A stretch of 64,000 bases of DNA. It comes from Bacteroidota bacterium. Its GTDB lineage: Bacteria; Bacteroidota; Bacteroidia; B-17B0; Aurantibacillaceae. The stretch lies in the NCBI GenBank assembly GCA_018267475.1, contig JAFDYI010000025.1, positions 1 to 64,000 on the forward strand, in the 5' to 3' direction. The translations under genes were made by a program, and so were the position numbers. Below the pieces are notes generated by a model that saw only the letters and a program-made list of their open reading frames with translations, was not told the origin of the DNA and made no database searches. This document shows positions 42,128 through 63,168 of the stretch, one piece after another (position 1 is the stretch's first letter; each line of letters opens with the position of its first letter).

Positions 42128-42568
42128 TTATGGATTAATATTTTTCCAGCTTATTATTTTTGCTTCCCATTTATGAGCGTATGCTTGAGCGCTGTCTTTA
42201 TTTGAAAAGGCGGCCGTATTGCCCCCCATGGGGCTTGCTACCGCTTCTCCTTCTACAAAAAATAAATTATCGGATAAAAGCAACTCGTTATTAGAAAGAT
42301 AATGGCTAACGTAAAATCGCGCCTCATTTGCTTTATCTTGATTATCTTTTTTATAATTAATCATGCACAACACATCGTCAAACTTATACACGCGCCCTTT
42401 TTCGGTTACTAATTCGCAAGCAAAACGAGAGTCGGAAATAGACATATTGCAGTTGTCGCAATTATCTTTGTTTAAATTAATACGTTCCGGGCCTGATGGT
42501 TTGCATGAGTTTAAGAAAAGGAAAAGAGCTAATCCGCACAAAGTCGTTATTTTTTTATTTGTTTTCAT
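42128..42568 (-). CDS. nosL: NosL copper-chaperone lipoprotein
   Basis: A 146-residue lipoprotein (lipobox LNSC, Cys about 22) with the NosL copper motif CDNCNMSISD (about 37-46) and FDDVLCMINY (about 64-73), ending in PMGGNTAAF. NosL delivers Cu(I) to the maturation machinery. It overlaps the upstream membrane protein gene by 14 bp. Confidence 0.93.
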   Translation of the reverse strand: MKTNKKITTLCGLALFLFLNSCKPSGPERINLNKDNCDNCNMSISDSRFACELVTEKGRVYKFDDVLCMINYKKDNQDKANEARFYVSHYLSNNELLLSDNLFFVEGEAVASPMGGNTAAFSNKDSAQAYAHKWEAKIISWKNINP

Positions 42569-43145
42569 TTTTTGAAAATTTTAATTCTTTTATTACAACA
42601 AGTAACATGAGTACACCGCTTATTACAAACAGCCAACCTCCTGTATCAGGTACGGAGTAGGCTCCAAAGTTAAGCAATTGCTTAAAACCGATAAGGGGCG
42701 GTTGATAAGCCATGCCCGGAACAATAATAGCGGCATGAGGATCTAAATCATGCCCATAGTTATATTCCCATCTCCAAAAATCGATCATAGCTACTACCCC
42801 AAATAATACAAATAAAGAAAATAAGGTGTACAGTATTTTTTTATTTCCAACAAAAGCCACTAATAAAGAAAACCCGGCAAAAAAGTAAATAATATACTTT
42901 AACACAGAAAACTCTATAAAATCTTTGGTGTGCAATGTTTTCATCCCTATGTAGTGGTTAAGTCCGTTGATAATATCTACATTTCCACCTAATGTATCTG
43001 TATAAATTTTTAGAGTAAGCCCTTCGGGATACTGGGGTGCGTTTAAATCAATTTGCCAAATAGGAACAAATGTAGAACCTATTAATAATACTGCAGCTAC
43101 GATTATTCCTATTCTAGAAAGCAACGACATTTTATTTTTATTCAT
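42555..43145 (-). CDS. Conserved polytopic membrane protein of nos clusters
   Basis: A 196-residue protein with four predicted helices (about 10-28, 82-100, 105-122, 168-186). The first extracytoplasmic loop holds the striking motif APQYPEGLTLKIY followed by INGLNHYIGM, with several potential metal ligands; a second loop has YNYGHDLDPHAAI. Similar proteins accompany clade II nosZ genes in Bacteroidota, but I cannot give a name. It is first in the block of maturation genes, right after the hairpin, so a role in copper supply or membrane assembly is inferred. Confidence 0.8.
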   Translation of the reverse strand: MNKNKMSLLSRIGIIVAAVLLIGSTFVPIWQIDLNAPQYPEGLTLKIYTDTLGGNVDIINGLNHYIGMKTLHTKDFIEFSVLKYIIYFFAGFSLLVAFVGNKKILYTLFSLFVLFGVVAMIDFWRWEYNYGHDLDPHAAIIVPGMAYQPPLIGFKQLLNFGAYSVPDTGGWLFVISGVLMLLVVIKELKFSKNENK

Positions 43146-43216: not shown

Positions 43217-45208
43217 TTATTTAGAGGCAGGCTCCTCAGCCTTTGGTAGGTTGGTTCCCAGGCTCCAAACAAGTGGCGTATTGCTGCTGGCTGGCGATAC
43301 CCTTACGTATCCTTGCATTTCCTGGTGCAGGGCACTGCAAAAGTCGGTACAGTAAAAGGGCCACATACCCGGTTTTTCCGGAGTCCATTTCAGGGTTTGT
43401 GTTTCGCCGGGCATAATAAGCAGTTCTGCATTTACAGCTCCTTTCACAGCAAAACCATGGGGTACGTCCCAATCTTGTTCTAGGTTTGTAACATGGAAAT
43501 ACACTTCATCGCCCATTTTTATTCCTTCTATGTTATCCGGAGAAAAATGCGAGCGTACGCAAGTCATGTACACATGCACTTTGTTTCCTTCTCTCACTAC
43601 TTTAGATTCTTTTTCTCCTTTTGTTACATATTGGTGTTTGTTCTCGTCTATTTTGTAAATTTTCTGAGAATTTTTTTGTATTTTTTCTGCTAATACGGCT
43701 TGCGCATAGTGAGGCTCGCCAATGGTTGGGAAGTCTAAAATCATTTCCATTTTTTCGCCGCTTATATCAAACAGTTGGGCGCTTTGGCATAACTCAGGAC
43801 CGGTAGGCAGGTAGCGATCTTTTGTGATTTTATTATATGCTATTAGATATTTTCCTGTTGGGTTTTTAGAATCTCCTTCTACTACACATAAATGCCCTAC
43901 AGAGTAAAAAACAGGAACGCGGTCAATTACTTTTAGTTCTTTTATGTTCCATTTTACCACTTCAGATGAAACGAACATAGAAGTATAAGCGTTTCCTTTT
44001 CCGTCAAATTCGGTGTGAAGAGGGCCAAGTCCGGGTTTTTTCACTTCTCCATACAAAGCTGCTTCGTATTTTATTACCGGAATGCCATCGTATGCTCCAT
44101 CAAACGCCTTGCTTTCAATAGCTTTTAACATTTTGCTAAAACTAAACACGGGGAGCAGCGCTGCTAATTTTCCGCTACCCACAATATATTCTCCGGTAGG
44201 GTCCACATCACAACCATGGGGTGATTTTGGGCAAGGCATCATGTAGCACAGGTCCGGAAAATCTTTTACATTTAGTATAGTTACTTCTGTTTTCATTTCA
44301 GATGAGGCGGAGTGCGTTGCTTCACTATATACATTATGTACATATTTTACTTTTTCCTTCCTTCCTTTTCCGGCTTTAATATATTCTTCTGCTTTTTTCC
44401 AATTTACAGCCATAATAAAATCTTTATCTCTTTGCGAAGCATTTACCTCTAACAAAGTGTTGGCCTGTTCGGTATTGTAGCAAGAGAAGAAAAACCAACC
44501 GTGCGAAACCCCTTTACCTGCGCGACTTAAATCAAAATCAACACCGGGGCATTCTAATTGAAAAGCTATGTCCATTTTTCCGTCTTCTTTTCCTACGCTT
44601 ACAAAACTTAAATAGCCTTTAAAATTTTGTTTGTAGGTGTTGATAGGAACGTCTCCGTTAGCATTATCGGGTGGAACACTAAATCGGGTACCGGCCACTA
44701 AATATTCTGTATTTTCGGTAAGGTAGGGCGAGGAGTGATTTCCTGCGCTGTTAGGTAATTCAATAATTTCTTCCGCTTTAAACGTTTTTAAATTAATTCG
44801 CGCAATGCGGGGTGTATTGTTGGCATTACCAAATACCCAGCGCCCATCAGCATCTCCGTTTGTTTTCGATAGCTGTACGTGGTGCAAATCATCCCAAGGC
44901 ACAAAACCGTGAGAAGTGTTGAGCATGGGTTTGGTTTCTTCGCTGTAACCCCAACCTTTTTCCGGATCTACCGAAAAAACAGGAATTACACGAAACAGCC
45001 GGCCGCTAGGCAAACCATACACACTCATTTGCCCACTAAAGCCGCCGCTTAAAAAGTTATATACTTCGTCGTATTTTCCGGGCGCCACGTAGGCTTTTAC
45101 AGAGGCGTTGCCCGATACTACGCTGCTGGTGTTTTGTGGTTTGCATGACTGCAGTGCTGTTACAGCAAATGCGCCGCTAACAGCTAAGAGAACTAACTTG
45201 TTGTTCAT
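43217..45208 (-). CDS. nosZ: Nitrous oxide reductase, clade II (Sec-type)
   Basis: A 663-residue copper enzyme that reduces N2O to N2. The export signal is of Sec type with a lipobox-like LQSC (Cys22) rather than a twin-arginine signal, typical of clade II. CuZ ligands are present: DDLHH (H109, H110), SPHGCD, LHTEFD, GHLC and EPHYAQ; CuA ligands lie at the C-terminus: H584 in VPHGF and CTDFCSALHQEM (C620, C624, H628, M631). All copper ligands appear intact, so the enzyme should be active. It is 24 bp after a cytochrome c gene, its likely electron donor. Confidence 0.97.
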   Translation of the reverse strand: MNNKLVLLAVSGAFAVTALQSCKPQNTSSVVSGNASVKAYVAPGKYDEVYNFLSGGFSGQMSVYGLPSGRLFRVIPVFSVDPEKGWGYSEETKPMLNTSHGFVPWDDLHHVQLSKTNGDADGRWVFGNANNTPRIARINLKTFKAEEIIELPNSAGNHSSPYLTENTEYLVAGTRFSVPPDNANGDVPINTYKQNFKGYLSFVSVGKEDGKMDIAFQLECPGVDFDLSRAGKGVSHGWFFFSCYNTEQANTLLEVNASQRDKDFIMAVNWKKAEEYIKAGKGRKEKVKYVHNVYSEATHSASSEMKTEVTILNVKDFPDLCYMMPCPKSPHGCDVDPTGEYIVGSGKLAALLPVFSFSKMLKAIESKAFDGAYDGIPVIKYEAALYGEVKKPGLGPLHTEFDGKGNAYTSMFVSSEVVKWNIKELKVIDRVPVFYSVGHLCVVEGDSKNPTGKYLIAYNKITKDRYLPTGPELCQSAQLFDISGEKMEMILDFPTIGEPHYAQAVLAEKIQKNSQKIYKIDENKHQYVTKGEKESKVVREGNKVHVYMTCVRSHFSPDNIEGIKMGDEVYFHVTNLEQDWDVPHGFAVKGAVNAELLIMPGETQTLKWTPEKPGMWPFYCTDFCSALHQEMQGYVRVSPASSNTPLVWSLGTNLPKAEEPASK

Positions 45209-57686: not shown

Positions 57687-58649
57687 ATGGATACAGAAAA
57701 CACATTGCATTTGACAGAAGGACATCCGGTGCAAACGTATTTAAAAGAAAGCAGCGTATTACATAAATTATTGCAAGAGCTACAGGAAACAAAGGCGCAC
57801 GCTGATTTTCAAAAATTTTACAATCTCTTTAATCAACTCCAAACTATTGAAAATCGATTTGTAAGAAAAGAGAATCAACTATTTCCTTTTTTAGAAAAAA
57901 GAGGTTGGCACGGCCCATCACAAGGAATGTGGTCTTTTCATGACACACTGCGAGAGGAAATGCGCATCATACGAAAAGCCTTTGACGCTAAACAGTATCA
58001 ACAAGTAGATAAGGATATAGCGCATTTAATAAACGGAATTTTAAATTTAATGAAAATAGAAGAAACTATTTTGTTTCCAAAAGCCCTTTCTATTTTGCAA
58101 GAAGAAGATTGGATAGCTATCAGCAAAGGAGAAAAAGAAACAGGCTGGATGCTTGCTTCGCCTCCCCCCGTATATTTAGGAGAAAAAAACGAAAAAGAAA
58201 TAAAGAGTTCTTTAGAGGCAGAGCCTGTTTTTGAAAAAAACACACATTACGACGAAGGCTATTTATCCATAGAACAAGTAAACTTATTATTTAAAACATT
58301 ACCTATAGACCTTACTTTTGTAGATGAGAACGATCGCGTTATTTTTTATAACAGAGGGCAAGAGCGCGTATTTCCAAGAAGTGCGGGTATTATAGGGCGC
58401 GAAGTAAAATTTTGCCACCCACCCAAAAGCGTAGGTACTGTTTTAGAAATTTTAGAAAAATTTAGAACGGGGCAACAAAATGAAGCTTCCTTTTGGATTA
58501 ATTATAAAGGGCGGCTTATTTACATTAGATATTTTGCGGTACGAGATGCCGAAAAAAAATATAGAGGAGTAATCGAAATGTCTCAAGACATAAGCGATTT
58601 AAAAAATATAGAAGGCGAGCGCCGCCTGCTACATTGGCAAGGCATGTAG
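57687..58649 (+). CDS. Hemerythrin (HHE/DUF438-like) plus PAS sensor protein
   Basis: A 320-residue cytoplasmic protein. Residues about 10-150 form a four-helix hemerythrin-type region: H-P start, RKENQLFPFLEKRGW (about 57-71), FHDTLREEM (about 83-91), EETILFPKAL (about 129-138). Residues about 195-305 are a PAS domain (LTFVDENDRVIFYNR, GREVKFCHPPKS, YIRYFAVRD). HHE domains bind di-iron and respond to O2 or NO; no output domain is present. It faces the norCB operon tail to tail, so NO or O2 sensing is a reasonable inference. Confidence 0.87.
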   Translation: MDTENTLHLTEGHPVQTYLKESSVLHKLLQELQETKAHADFQKFYNLFNQLQTIENRFVRKENQLFPFLEKRGWHGPSQGMWSFHDTLREEMRIIRKAFDAKQYQQVDKDIAHLINGILNLMKIEETILFPKALSILQEEDWIAISKGEKETGWMLASPPPVYLGEKNEKEIKSSLEAEPVFEKNTHYDEGYLSIEQVNLLFKTLPIDLTFVDENDRVIFYNRGQERVFPRSAGIIGREVKFCHPPKSVGTVLEILEKFRTGQQNEASFWINYKGRLIYIRYFAVRDAEKKYRGVIEMSQDISDLKNIEGERRLLHWQGM

Positions 58650-58850: not shown

Positions 58851-60026
58851 TTATTTTTTTCGGTTATTTAATTCTGTTTTTATTTTTTTTAACTCATCTA
58901 CTATTTGTGCGTTTACGGAGCTATTTTCTTCCGAGCGTCTAATTAAATAGGGTATGGCTTTTTTTATTTCACCATAGGGCAAATATTTTGAAACATTATA
59001 ATTGCCGGAGGCTAAGTTAAAAGTAAGACTATCGCACATACCGTATAGCTGCGAAAACCGCACCTTATTTTCTATATCTTTAATTTGATATTTTTTAATA
59101 CAATCAATAGCTAATTGTGTGCTTACGTAGTTGTGCGAAGCAATACATGTTGAAACATTTTTATGATTACTTAAACATAATTCTACCGCGGTATTAAATG
59201 ACTGATCGGTTTGCTCTTTAGTATCAAAAACGGGCGATTCTTTTTTTTCTTTTAAAGCTGTTTCTCTTTCTTTTTCGAGATAAGCACCGCGCACCAATTT
59301 TATCCCTGCAATGTATTGTTTTTGTTTTCCTGATGCTATTAACTTATGTAAATATTCCATACGGTCTTTCAAATACATCTGCAAGGTATTAAACACAACT
59401 GCCTTTTCTGTGTTGTATTTTTCCATCATGTTTTCTACCATTGCATCTATAATATCCTGCATAAACCGGTCTTCAGCATCAATATATACCACCACATTGT
59501 TTTCTTTAGCCGTAAGGCAAATTAAATCTATTCTGTTATATAGTTTTTCAAAACGCAATTTTGATTTTTCATCTGTAGGAAAATGATTGGCATTACACGC
59601 TGCTAAAAAAACAGAATCTTCTAAACCGGTTATTTTTACACTTACATAATTATTTGGACACTCTTTTCCCAATCGTTTAATATTAGTAACGATAGTACCT
59701 GTGTTGCTTTTAAAAATAGCTTCCGTTTTTTCGCTTTCCGATACGTAATCCAGTACGGCTGCTACTTTAAATTGATTTATTTTTTTTATTTGCTGAAAAG
59801 CTTCATCTAAGGTTTCTCCGGCACAAAATAGTTTAAAAATAGTTTTTTTTATAAAAAACTTAAACGGTAAGCGGTATCTTATGATGCCGTTTGCACCTGC
59901 TTTCAACACCCGCAGCACATACGGTTTTTGCAAAATTTTAAAAACGAGGTAGCTTCGTTTTAAATCGCTGTTACTTTTATGTTGAAACGCAATTCTTGTG
60001 TTTTGTAAATCAATGGTGTTATTCAT
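58851..60026 (-). CDS. Proline dehydrogenase
   Basis: A 391-residue flavoenzyme oxidising proline to pyrroline-5-carboxylate and passing electrons to quinone. TIM-barrel PRODH features: YIDAEDRFMQ (about 175-184), TLQMYLKDR (about 206-214), KLVRGAYLEKER (about 231-242), ASHN near 288 and the FAD/proline-binding C-terminal YGEIKKAIPYLIRRSEEN (about 347-364). It is the monofunctional form; the partner P5C dehydrogenase is not here. It overlaps the norB-like gene by 8 bp, so it is translated with it, which is an unusual partnership. Confidence 0.93.
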   Translation of the reverse strand: MNNTIDLQNTRIAFQHKSNSDLKRSYLVFKILQKPYVLRVLKAGANGIIRYRLPFKFFIKKTIFKLFCAGETLDEAFQQIKKINQFKVAAVLDYVSESEKTEAIFKSNTGTIVTNIKRLGKECPNNYVSVKITGLEDSVFLAACNANHFPTDEKSKLRFEKLYNRIDLICLTAKENNVVVYIDAEDRFMQDIIDAMVENMMEKYNTEKAVVFNTLQMYLKDRMEYLHKLIASGKQKQYIAGIKLVRGAYLEKERETALKEKKESPVFDTKEQTDQSFNTAVELCLSNHKNVSTCIASHNYVSTQLAIDCIKKYQIKDIENKVRFSQLYGMCDSLTFNLASGNYNVSKYLPYGEIKKAIPYLIRRSEENSSVNAQIVDELKKIKTELNNRKK

Positions 60027-61362
60027 ACGATGGCTTTATGGTAACGTTTTTTATGAAAGGCTTCAATAGACTGGTAATTAAAATAACAAATGAAAAAAAC
60101 AAGCCGATGCCTGCTAAAGTAAAAACAATGAAATAAGGCTGTAGGGTGCTCATCATTTGTGAGTACGATGCTTGGGGTGTGCTTAATTGCCATATTCCTT
60201 TTTTAACCCCGGCTATATTCAACGAAACCCAAAATATCAGCAAACTAATTTGTAATGCCCAAAAAGCAGATACAAGTATTTTTTTTGATTTTATTTTTTG
60301 ATGCCTACAAGGTTTTAAAAATTCAAAGCAGGCCGCCAACAAAATCATACTATTGATGCCTATAGTGGTGCCCATGGCGTGCGCTACAGTAATGTGCGTG
60401 CCGTGCGTATAAAGGTTAATAGCGGGTATAGACATCAAAATAGCTTGCCCCATATTTATGAATACCCATATATCAGAGGCCATAATAAATTTATAGGGAA
60501 AATAATGTTCGTGTTTTTGAATCGTATTTAACGCCTCTTTCCAAGTATAAATAATTTTAATAAAAAAAATCCATTCGGTCATACTCACAGCATAGCCTAT
60601 GTAGCGAATGTATTTTTCGGTAGGCAGGGTATAAAGATGATGCCCCCAATTAAACATTAAATTAAACAGCCCTAAAAAATACATAGCGAAGGCTATTTTG
60701 TTTTTTCCTACTTTTTTGGAGTTAGCTATTTTATCCATTAAAAAAAAAGCGGTACCGTATATCATTTGATTCCAAGAGCCAACTAAAGACCCGTTTACTT
60801 TCCATTGTATGGTGGTGTCGGTAATGAAGTGTTGCCTAAAGTACGGGATAAGCCACAAGTAATTTTCAGAAAAGGTGAAAAAGAAAAACACCAACCCTGT
60901 AAGCCACATCCACACATATACCGGCCACTTTCTTATTTTTTCGCTATGTATATAAAAATTAACCAAAAACAACAACCAGGCAAGGGCAATAGGCAAAGCC
61001 CATATAGGGTTAAATTCCCAATACTCTCTTCCGCCAAATTGATGTGCAAAATAAGAGGTGCAGATGCCTATGATAGAAAATACCCACAACAACCATTGAG
61101 CCCATGCTATATTTTTATTTATAGTTTGTTGGGTAATAGCTTGCAAGCCGTTATATACGCAGCCTGTTGCTCCCAAAATAATCCAAAACAGGGCTGAAGA
61201 AACGTGAAGCGGTCGTAAAGAGATAAACCCAAGTGTGCTTTTTAAAAACTCAGGGTATATATAGGTAATAGCCGCCAAAACACCAAAGCACAAGCCAAAC
61301 AACAACATAAAAAGAGCTGTTATTAAAAATAAATTTCCGGCGCCTATTTTATTTGTTTTCAT
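60019..61362 (-). CDS. norB: NorB-like haem-copper/nitric oxide reductase subunit with changed ligands
   Basis: A 447-residue membrane protein with about 12 helices, catalytic subunit of a NorCB-type nitric oxide reductase. Compared from memory with the Pseudomonas NorB: kept are low-spin haem ligand H53 (RPLHVSS), iron ligands H241-H242 (WGHHLY), E263 (SMTEW) and the haem b3 ligand H328 (VAHAM). Changed are N190 where the third FeB histidine (H207) is expected, V194 for E211, and M330 for the second low-spin haem histidine (H349). N190 is exactly 51 residues before H241, the same spacing as in NorB. So it is a divergent family member; NO reduction is likely from norC but not proven. It overlaps norC by 14 bp. 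Confidence 0.85.
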   Translation of the reverse strand: MKTNKIGAGNLFLITALFMLLFGLCFGVLAAITYIYPEFLKSTLGFISLRPLHVSSALFWIILGATGCVYNGLQAITQQTINKNIAWAQWLLWVFSIIGICTSYFAHQFGGREYWEFNPIWALPIALAWLLFLVNFYIHSEKIRKWPVYVWMWLTGLVFFFFTFSENYLWLIPYFRQHFITDTTIQWKVNGSLVGSWNQMIYGTAFFLMDKIANSKKVGKNKIAFAMYFLGLFNLMFNWGHHLYTLPTEKYIRYIGYAVSMTEWIFFIKIIYTWKEALNTIQKHEHYFPYKFIMASDIWVFINMGQAILMSIPAINLYTHGTHITVAHAMGTTIGINSMILLAACFEFLKPCRHQKIKSKKILVSAFWALQISLLIFWVSLNIAGVKKGIWQLSTPQASYSQMMSTLQPYFIVFTLAGIGLFFSFVILITSLLKPFIKNVTIKPSYE

Positions 61363-61771
61363 GCGCTTCTATCATACCTAAATTATCTTTTCTAAACTTG
61401 CGTAAATCGGCATTTCCGCTAGCATCTACCGATTTTAAAAACTCTACCAATTGACTCATTTCCATTTCTGAAATAGTAAAAGCAGGCATTTGTTTAATCC
61501 CCGTTTTTACCATAGTGCGCACCAATGCCTCTCCTTTTTTGGGTTGCGAAATAACGTTGGTTAAGTCGGGGCCTAAATACCCGCCTAAACTGTATAATTG
61601 GTGACAAGACTGGCAGTTGTATTTTTGCCACACCAATCTACCTTGCGCCGCCGTTTCTTTATTGAATGACGTATTGCCTGTATTTGATAAGGGCTGCATA
61701 TATATGCTTATAGAGTATGCTAAAAATAATATGCTTAAAAACAAAAAAGTATGTCGTGCTTTTATTTTCAT
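61349..61771 (-). CDS. norC: NorC-like membrane-anchored cytochrome c
   Basis: A 140-residue protein: one N-terminal membrane anchor (about 8-26) and a haem-c domain with CQSCH (53-57), LGGYLGPDLTNV (62-73) and axial Met95 in KQMPAF. The pattern GRLVWQKYNCQSCHQLYSLGG is that of NorC, the electron-entry subunit of cNOR (shown here in part: CQSCHQLYSLGG). It lies 14 bp after the tyrosine phenol-lyase gene and overlaps norB. Confidence 0.92.
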   Translation of the reverse strand: MKIKARHTFLFLSILFLAYSISIYMQPLSNTGNTSFNKETAAQGRLVWQKYNCQSCHQLYSLGGYLGPDLTNVISQPKKGEALVRTMVKTGIKQMPAFTISEMEMSQLVEFLKSVDASGNADLRKFRKDNLGMIEAHENK

Positions 61772-61785
61772 GCAATAATTTTATC

Positions 61786-63168
61786 TTACATTTTTTCAAA
61801 TTTTGCCTGGAAGAATCGTAAATATTTTGGCTCATAAATCATTTTCAATCCTTTAATAGATTTTCTTAGTTCGTAAACAGAAGCCGCCGATTCGGCGACT
61901 ACATCCATATGAGCTTGCGTATAAACCCTTCTGGGAATGGTAAAACGAACCAATTCTAATTTTGGGTAATAATTTTCGCCATTCGGTTTCCTTCCGGCAG
62001 AAACGATACCTCTTTCCATTGTTCTTACCCCCGAATCAATATACAACTCGGCAGCTAGCGTTTGAGCAGGAAATTGGTCTTGCGTTAGGTGAGGTAAAAA
62101 GGCTTTAGCATCTACAAAAATACCATGCCCGCCAATCGGCTTTACAATGGGTAACCCATACTCCAGCATTTTTTGACCAAGATATTCCACCTGCCCCACG
62201 CGCGCACGCTGATGATCGTCGTTTAAACTTTCGACAATACCTACTGCAATGGCTTCCATGTCTCTGCCTGCTAAACCGCCATACGTATGCAAGCCTTCGT
62301 ACACTACTACCAAATTTCTAGCTTCTTCAAACACATTCCAATCGTTAATAGCCATAAACCCACCAATATTTACCAAAGCATCTTTTTTGGCGCTCATGGT
62401 AGCTCCATCTGTATAAGAACAAATTTCTTTTACAATATCTTTAATGCTTTTTTTATCGTACCCTTTTTCACGCTGTTGAATAAAATAAGCGTTTTCTGCC
62501 ACCCTCGTCATATCATGAATGATGCGAATACCGTGTTTTTTAGTATAAGCTCTCAACTCCTTTAAATTAGCCATGCTTACCGGTTGGCCGCCTGCCATGT
62601 TTACGTTAGTAGCCACGCACACATAGGGTATTTTTTTTGCTCCATATTTTTTTACCAACTTATCTAACTTAGCTATATCCACGTTTCCTTTAAAAGGGTG
62701 TTCATTTAACGGATCGTGTGCTTCATCTATAATCACATCAGCAAATATGCCCCCTGCTAATTCTTGGTGCAAGCGGGTTGTGGTAAAATACATATTACCC
62801 GGTATAATGTCTCCTTTCTTAATTAAAATTTGAGATAATATGTTTTCTGCTGCCCTACCTTGGTGTGTGGGCACTACATATTTATATCCATAATACTTTT
62901 GAATGGTTTCTTCTAAAAAATAATAACTTTTGCTGCCTGCATACGCCTCATCACCGGTCATAAAAGCGCTCCACTGGCGGTCGCTCATAGAATTGGTTCC
63001 GCTATCTGTTAGCAAATCAATATATACATCTTCCGACCGTAAAAGAAACGTGTTATAGCCTGCTTCCTTAATCGCTTTAGTACGTTGCTGCTTGGTAGTC
63101 ATTTTTAATAATTCTACCATTTTCATTTTATAGGGCTCTGCCCATGAGCGTTTTTTTATTGTTTTCAT
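61786..63168 (-). CDS. tpl: Tyrosine phenol-lyase
   Basis: A 460-residue PLP enzyme splitting L-tyrosine to phenol, pyruvate and ammonia. It follows tyrosine phenol-lyase rather than tryptophanase: FTTTR (128-132), PLP lysine K262 in TMSAKKD, and above all VRTMERGIVSAGR (381-393), where R386 equals the tyrosine-specific Arg381. Other family blocks: LLTDSGTNSMSD, PTHQGRAAENIL, IPRRVYTQAHMDVV. Length is the family norm. Lies 47 bp after the tryptophanase-like gene and 14 bp before norC. Confidence 0.9.
   Translation of the reverse strand: MKTIKKRSWAEPYKMKMVELLKMTTKQQRTKAIKEAGYNTFLLRSEDVYIDLLTDSGTNSMSDRQWSAFMTGDEAYAGSKSYYFLEETIQKYYGYKYVVPTHQGRAAENILSQILIKKGDIIPGNMYFTTTRLHQELAGGIFADVIIDEAHDPLNEHPFKGNVDIAKLDKLVKKYGAKKIPYVCVATNVNMAGGQPVSMANLKELRAYTKKHGIRIIHDMTRVAENAYFIQQREKGYDKKSIKDIVKEICSYTDGATMSAKKDALVNIGGFMAINDWNVFEEARNLVVVYEGLHTYGGLAGRDMEAIAVGIVESLNDDHQRARVGQVEYLGQKMLEYGLPIVKPIGGHGIFVDAKAFLPHLTQDQFPAQTLAAELYIDSGVRTMERGIVSAGRKPNGENYYPKLELVRFTIPRRVYTQAHMDVVAESAASVYELRKSIKGLKMIYEPKYLRFFQAKFEKM

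Follow-up and report, generated by a model that had tools for sequence, protein, structure and literature searches.

A Bacteroidota clade of NorC-paired C-family haem-copper proteins with methionine at a low-spin haem position, putatively consuming nitric oxide

The haem-copper proteins are built around a sextet of histidines, of which two hold the low-spin haem, one holds the high-spin haem and three hold FeB or CuB (PMC3413370). The gene at 60019..61362 on the reverse strand of the window, a 64,000-nucleotide stretch of DNA from a member of the Bacteroidota, raises the question of what a NorB-like protein does when it keeps only four of these six, as Met330 and Gly191/Asn190 replace the other two. 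Its 447-aa product, here called Met-HCO, is a NorB/CcoN-like haem-copper subunit I as judged by its open reading frame, Pfam and PDB sequence matches, and fold. In Pfam it matches COX1 (PF00115, 118 bits) and in NCBIfam only ccoN, below threshold. Among PDB sequences it is closest to NorB, from Roseobacter denitrificans and then P. aeruginosa, with CcoN next, and a PDB profile search returned only cNOR and cbb3 entries.

The gene directly upstream (61349..61771, reverse strand) overlaps the start of the Met-HCO gene by 14 bases and encodes a NorC-type membrane cytochrome c with a CQSCH motif and a distal Met95, identified by PDB match and locus comparison. Its best PDB match is P. aeruginosa NorC (3o0r_C, E 4e-11). 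At the other end, a proline dehydrogenase gene (58851..60026, reverse strand) shares 8 bases with the end of the Met-HCO gene, and in 21 of about 80 loci this enzyme is the next gene downstream. The same gene string contains, upstream of Met-HCO, a tyrosine phenol-lyase/tryptophanase family gene (61786..63168, reverse strand), and a second copy lies further upstream and extends beyond the window end. A clade II NosZ gene (43217..45208, reverse strand; TIGR04246, 928 bits) lies about 15 kb from Met-HCO on the shared strand. The nos cluster also holds a 196-aa protein (42555-43145, reverse strand) with no Pfam or NCBIfam match. A hemerythrin-like protein with a PAS domain is encoded at 57687-58649 on the forward strand, and the thioesterase gene beside it recurs near Met-HCO in other genomes.

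The translated reading frame places H53, N190, V194, H241, H242, E263, H328 and M330 where the preliminary description of this DNA had put them, and the interval that it singled out, 60373-60795, runs from the Met330 codon to the Asn190 codon. All residues discussed here are encoded on the reverse strand. His53 (61204..61206) is at the position of the first low-spin haem ligand and Met330 (60373..60375) is at that of the second, His349 of P. aeruginosa NorB, so that the alignment points to Met330 as a low-spin haem ligand. The replacement of this histidine by Met was first noted in a single gene and is a fixed trait of the family, found in 68 of 68 relatives collected without motif bias and in 145 of 145 sequences overall; because relatives in GTDB species genomes were sought with a peptide pattern that itself includes the Met, only the 68-sequence set is unbiased for this residue. 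A sequencing error at these codons was considered and rejected, since the 68 relatives found independently, like the full set of 145 sequences, all carry Met330. Invariant along with Met330 and His53 are His241-His242 (60637..60642), the two remaining FeB/CuB histidines; Glu263 (60574..60576), at the position of NorB Glu280; His320; and His328 (60379..60381), at the position of the high-spin haem proximal ligand. Also invariant are K188, G191, G195, N198, Y202 and the family-specific Glu166 (60865..60867), and a further family-specific residue, His323 (60394..60396), is kept in 140 of 145. Five of these conserved residues, K188, N198, Y202, E166 and H323, were absent from the original list.

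The metal site is altered in helix VI, where the segment K188-Y202 (60757..60801) contains no histidine, and none of the 145 sequences has one at the helix VI ligand position. Aligned by hhalign with Bacteroidota cNOR (E 1e-23), the Met-HCO family takes one gap in this helix, which pairs Gly191 with His207 and Val194 (present in 142 of 145) with Glu211. The profile alignment with CcoN is ungapped here and sets Gly191 opposite the CuB histidine. An ungapped register in which Asn190 matches His207 is possible only if the alignment is anchored on G195-x-W197. As read from these alignments, the FeB histidine and Glu211 are missing under either register, and in the better-supported one Gly191 is the likely equivalent of the FeB/CuB histidine. 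The altered FeB site proposed in the preliminary description therefore extends to the whole family. Its suggestion that Asn190 serves as an FeB ligand does not survive, since residue 190 varies (N in 90, Y in 45 and L, S, G, A or M in 10 of the 145 sequences) and the invariant Gly191 takes the histidine position in the profile alignments. The spacing of 51 residues between N190 and H241, which had been called exact, is recovered in the ungapped alignment anchored downstream and is lost in the profile alignments.

An AlphaFold2 model built with 62 family members has a mean pLDDT of 86.5 and a pTM of 0.89. VIA-align places this model closest to CcoN of cbb3 (Z 41.5), followed by NorB of cNOR (39.7 and 38.3), with the remaining haem-copper structures at 31.6 or lower, and Foldseek also ranks the CcoN and cNOR kinds first. 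Met-HCO is thus predicted to fold like subunit I of cbb3 and cNOR, within the haem-copper superfamily by both fold and homology. A tree of 62 rows resolves four separate clades, namely Met-HCO (38 rows, SH-aLRT 97), cNOR (99), NOD-like (100) and cbb3 (100), and it fixes no order among Met-HCO, cbb3 and cNOR, the branch of the aa3 outgroup being far too long. The structure-based alignment and phylogeny that had been proposed as a check thus yield a C-family fold and a clade apart from cNOR, NOD and cbb3, which bears out the idea of a distinct haem-copper-type protein.

Whether Met-HCO belongs to a known class had been left open, and comparison with each class narrows the answer. With cNOR (PDB 3o0r, 4xyd) it shares the NorC cytochrome c partner, the length and fold of subunit I, the HH pair, the haem b3 histidine, the first low-spin haem histidine and the Glu280 position. 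It differs in having no equivalents of helix VI His207 and Glu211, Asn for Glu215, and Met for His349 where cNOR has two low-spin haem b histidines; it also forms its own clade at about 21-26% identity, and genomes with Met-HCO only have no NorQ. The likeness to CcoN (PDB 3mk7, 9g6b) lies in the fold (Z about 41), the RPLH and G-(R/K)-E-Y motifs and the ungapped helix VI, whereas the CuB histidine is lost to Gly191, the low-spin haem histidine to Met, Glu263 is present and the partner is NorC rather than CcoO/CcoP. Like Met-HCO, NOD and qNOR are of the C-family and NOD has an altered FeB site, in its case with Asn for the second histidine of the HH pair and Gln for Glu. Met-HCO keeps the HH pair and Glu (H241, H242 and E263 being invariant), has lost the helix VI histidine instead, and at 447 aa lacks the fused N-terminal extension of qNOR and NOD, which are about 750-830 aa long. 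By these comparisons Met-HCO is not cNOR, qNOR/NOD or cbb3. The non-canonical NORs or candidates eNOR, bNOR, sNOR, gNOR and nNOR resemble it in having altered active sites and are described as relatives of the B-family (PMC11388526), whereas the sequence, tree and fold of Met-HCO are C-family; here the comparison consisted of profile matches, Foldseek and VIA-align, all of which lead to the C-family, and nNOR, sNOR and gNOR are set apart by their published description. Membership of nNOR on the strength of its letter N was rejected on the same grounds. Separately, Bacteroidetes bacterium OLB10 (L187) encodes a ba3-like B-family subunit with GHFKGT in place of the ba3 GHFH, and with this Lys at the low-spin haem histidine position it may be of the eNOR type. 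A search of open literature for Met-ligated haem-copper enzymes or divergent Bacteroidota NorB yielded nothing direct, and mention under another name is possible. Within the C-family haem-copper proteins, Met-HCO forms a Bacteroidota clade of its own, paired with NorC.

A protein search of 396 well-assembled Bacteroidia genomes found Met-HCO in 79 of them, with relatives at about 40-75% identity, and NorC is adjacent and immediately upstream in 78 of the 79 loci. From the GTDB species genomes scanned, 550 relatives were confirmed, and nearly all of the top 80 belong to the Bacteroidota, cultured Flavobacterium antarcticum and F. proteolyticum among them. No members were found in virus contigs, and a phylum-wide profile search (178 genomes, E 1e-25) found no intermediate forms. 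Plasmid matches at about 26% identity were discarded as members, as those read are canonical rhizobial nor clusters with NorQ and NorD. Apparent spread beyond the Bacteroidota to a metagenome-assembled genome titled Thermoanaerobaculia (locus L141, genome G428) was also set aside, since the same record holds a Bacteroidota-type cNOR (L189) and so may be mixed or misnamed.

Across genomes, the neighbourhood of Met-HCO is a NO and anaerobic gene set, with neighbours named from Pfam or, outside the Pfam run, by eye from sequence. Common among them are Rrf2 regulators (38 loci) and ScdA/RIC di-iron repair hemerythrins (28 loci), along with NadA/NadB, NrdD/NrdG, Crp/Fnr, tryptophanase/TPL, proline dehydrogenase and PTPS. 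The nosZ gene falls within 20 kb of Met-HCO in 17 of 70 genomes against about 1 expected, on the same strand in 15 of the 17. Several recurrent genes were noted as observations in their own right. One, usually upstream of tryptophanase/TPL and Met-HCO, encodes a conserved product of about 600 aa with no Pfam or NCBIfam match (L101:7683-9491 and 31 other loci). Another, likewise without a match (L108:19278-20510 and 15 other loci), encodes a product of about 411 aa that is hydrophobic and membrane-like, and is sometimes directly upstream of NorC (L124, L127, L129, L135). At four loci (L089, L093, L121, L134) the NorC/Met-HCO pair has a further haem-copper gene beside or near it, with PAHFHTY in a product of about 479 aa, accompanied by an apparent CuA-like subunit and an SCO-like protein.

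Co-occurrence was counted over the same 396 Bacteroidia genomes. NosZ is present in 70 of the 79 genomes with Met-HCO and in 69 of the 317 without (odds ratio 28, p 1e-28), kinship being handled by comparison within genera and within families only. In the family of the window's genome NosZ occurs in 7 of 8 genomes with Met-HCO and 0 of 11 without, and in one genus (g2) in 5 of 5 and 0 of 9, so that the association is more than ancestry alone. NirK has an odds ratio of 3.5 and the long NOR/NOD genes one of 5.7; cNOR shows no association with Met-HCO over the 396 genomes. NirK is missing from 64 of the 79 Met-HCO genomes and NirS from all 57 that were checked, so in most hosts NO would come from outside. 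Scored outside the window's own genome with one query and at most four candidates per genome, a procedure under which B-family NORs may remain, 9 of 17 NirK genomes without cNOR, qNOR or NOD have Met-HCO, as do 8 of the 13 such genomes with both nirK and nosZ. The window's own genome, 99% complete, encodes NirK (356 bits) with a NirV-like gene behind it, as well as NosZ. Its COX1-family proteins number just three, namely aa3, cbb3-like and Met-HCO, with no canonical NOR among them, which leaves Met-HCO as its sole haem-copper candidate for the step from NO to N2O.

NorQ (PF08406) occurs in all 19 cNOR genomes and in none of the 45 genomes with Met-HCO only, a group that includes the window's genome. 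In cNOR, FeB cannot be inserted without NorQ and NorD (PMC9976466). The absence of NorQ fits a metal site that is not supplied with FeB via NorQ/NorD. However, qNOR works without NorQ, so a missing NorQ is no proof of an empty site.

From these results we consider it an even prospect that Met-HCO is a NO-consuming enzyme of the NorCB type whose haem b is held by His and Met and whose metal site is degenerate, and which likely converts NO to N2O. The sequence changes, the separate clade, the NorC partner, the gene linkage and the co-occurrence were established directly; Met ligation, the redox path and NO reduction are steps that we infer. A soluble donor would pass electrons to the haem c of NorC and from there to the haem b held by His53 and Met330. 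A His/Met haem is expected to have a higher potential than a bis-His haem, and the same would apply here. Electrons would then reach haem b3 on His328, the site at which NO would bind and undergo reduction, with N2O as the most likely product; this N2O would feed the NosZ that co-occurs with Met-HCO. The distal site may hold a weakly bound metal on His241/His242 and Glu263 or may be empty, and could form without need for the NorQD machinery. N198, Y202, K188 and E263 are proposed as a replacement proton or metal environment. The bolder reading, to which we give somewhat less than an even chance, is that of a new NO reductase class in the Bacteroidota, with a His/Met low-spin haem b, no helix VI metal ligand and no NorQD, which supplies N2O to clade II NosZ. 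Under the same tentative reading, the distal site would be a two-His metal site or haem only, and the hosts would be among those now counted as lacking nor.

Loss of the FeB histidine and Glu211 is normally expected to abolish cNOR activity. The main competitor to an NO-consuming enzyme is a non-catalytic relative, in which NorC and the haem-b subunit form a module with a decayed FeB site that transfers electrons or binds NO, as a sensor or buffer, perhaps passing electrons to NosZ or other periplasmic cytochromes. The lost helix VI ligands and the absence of NorQ favour this module, as does an association strongest with NosZ rather than nitrite reductases, and in L143 and L150 the Met-HCO gene is followed immediately by a gene string of cytochrome c and nosZ. 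Canonical cNOR, qNOR or NOD is also present in 13 of the 79 Met-HCO genomes, which indicates that Met-HCO is not simply a replacement. However, half of the NosZ genomes are without Met-HCO, which is thus not required for NosZ. Across relatives with identities as low as about 40%, there is no change in the haem b3 histidine, in Glu263, in the HH pair or in many of the polar residues around the site, which argues for a retained catalytic pocket. We regard the non-catalytic module as rather unlikely, and of the alternatives it deserves the most attention.

Other NO chemistry is suggested by the NOD-like genes that adjoin or lie near the Met-HCO pair at seven loci (L107, L121, L130, L147, L149, L156, L162). 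These genes, of about 760-826 aa with HN for HH and Gln for Glu, carry the described NO dismutase signature, and dismutation by Met-HCO in parallel with them would also suit the enrichment of long NOR/NOD genes. NOD changes precisely the HH-pair and Glu positions that Met-HCO keeps (PMC3413370, PMC10286720), and it is described as unable to take external electrons (PMC3413370), whereas Met-HCO retains the electron-donating NorC; dismutation is accordingly improbable. We see equally little prospect of a cbb3-related oxygen reductase, or an O2- or NO-tolerant oxidase for low O2, despite the marginally closer fit of the model to CcoN and the shared motifs and helix VI register, since the CuB histidine is gone, the partner is NorC rather than CcoO/CcoP, Glu263 is as in NorB and the gene is linked to nosZ, RIC and Rrf2. 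An ordinary cNOR misread through alignment or sequencing error could draw on a family annotation that says only COX1/ccoN-like. The same changes in 145 independent sequences, and a clade well separated from true Bacteroidota cNOR, make this reading barely credible, and alignment and tree together rule it out. Both kinds even stand side by side at four loci (L097, L099, L100, L106), where a canonical cNOR in the Met-HCO neighbourhood has His207, Glu211, HH and HxH intact.

A Met at the low-spin haem ligand position and a lost helix VI ligand, both fixed clade-wide, would break the histidine-sextet rule. In a large survey, Bacteroidota made up 53% of the N2O-reducing 'terminators', genomes with nir and nosZ and without nor were 9% in the Bacteroidota, and candidate NORs lacking conserved ligands were removed by hand (PMC12569097). 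Should Met-HCO reduce NO, the gap scored in many genomes would close, and estimates of N2O sources and sinks that rely on norB markers would shift. Met-HCO may be an overlooked NO-to-N2O step that travels with the N2O-consuming nosZ in the Bacteroidota.
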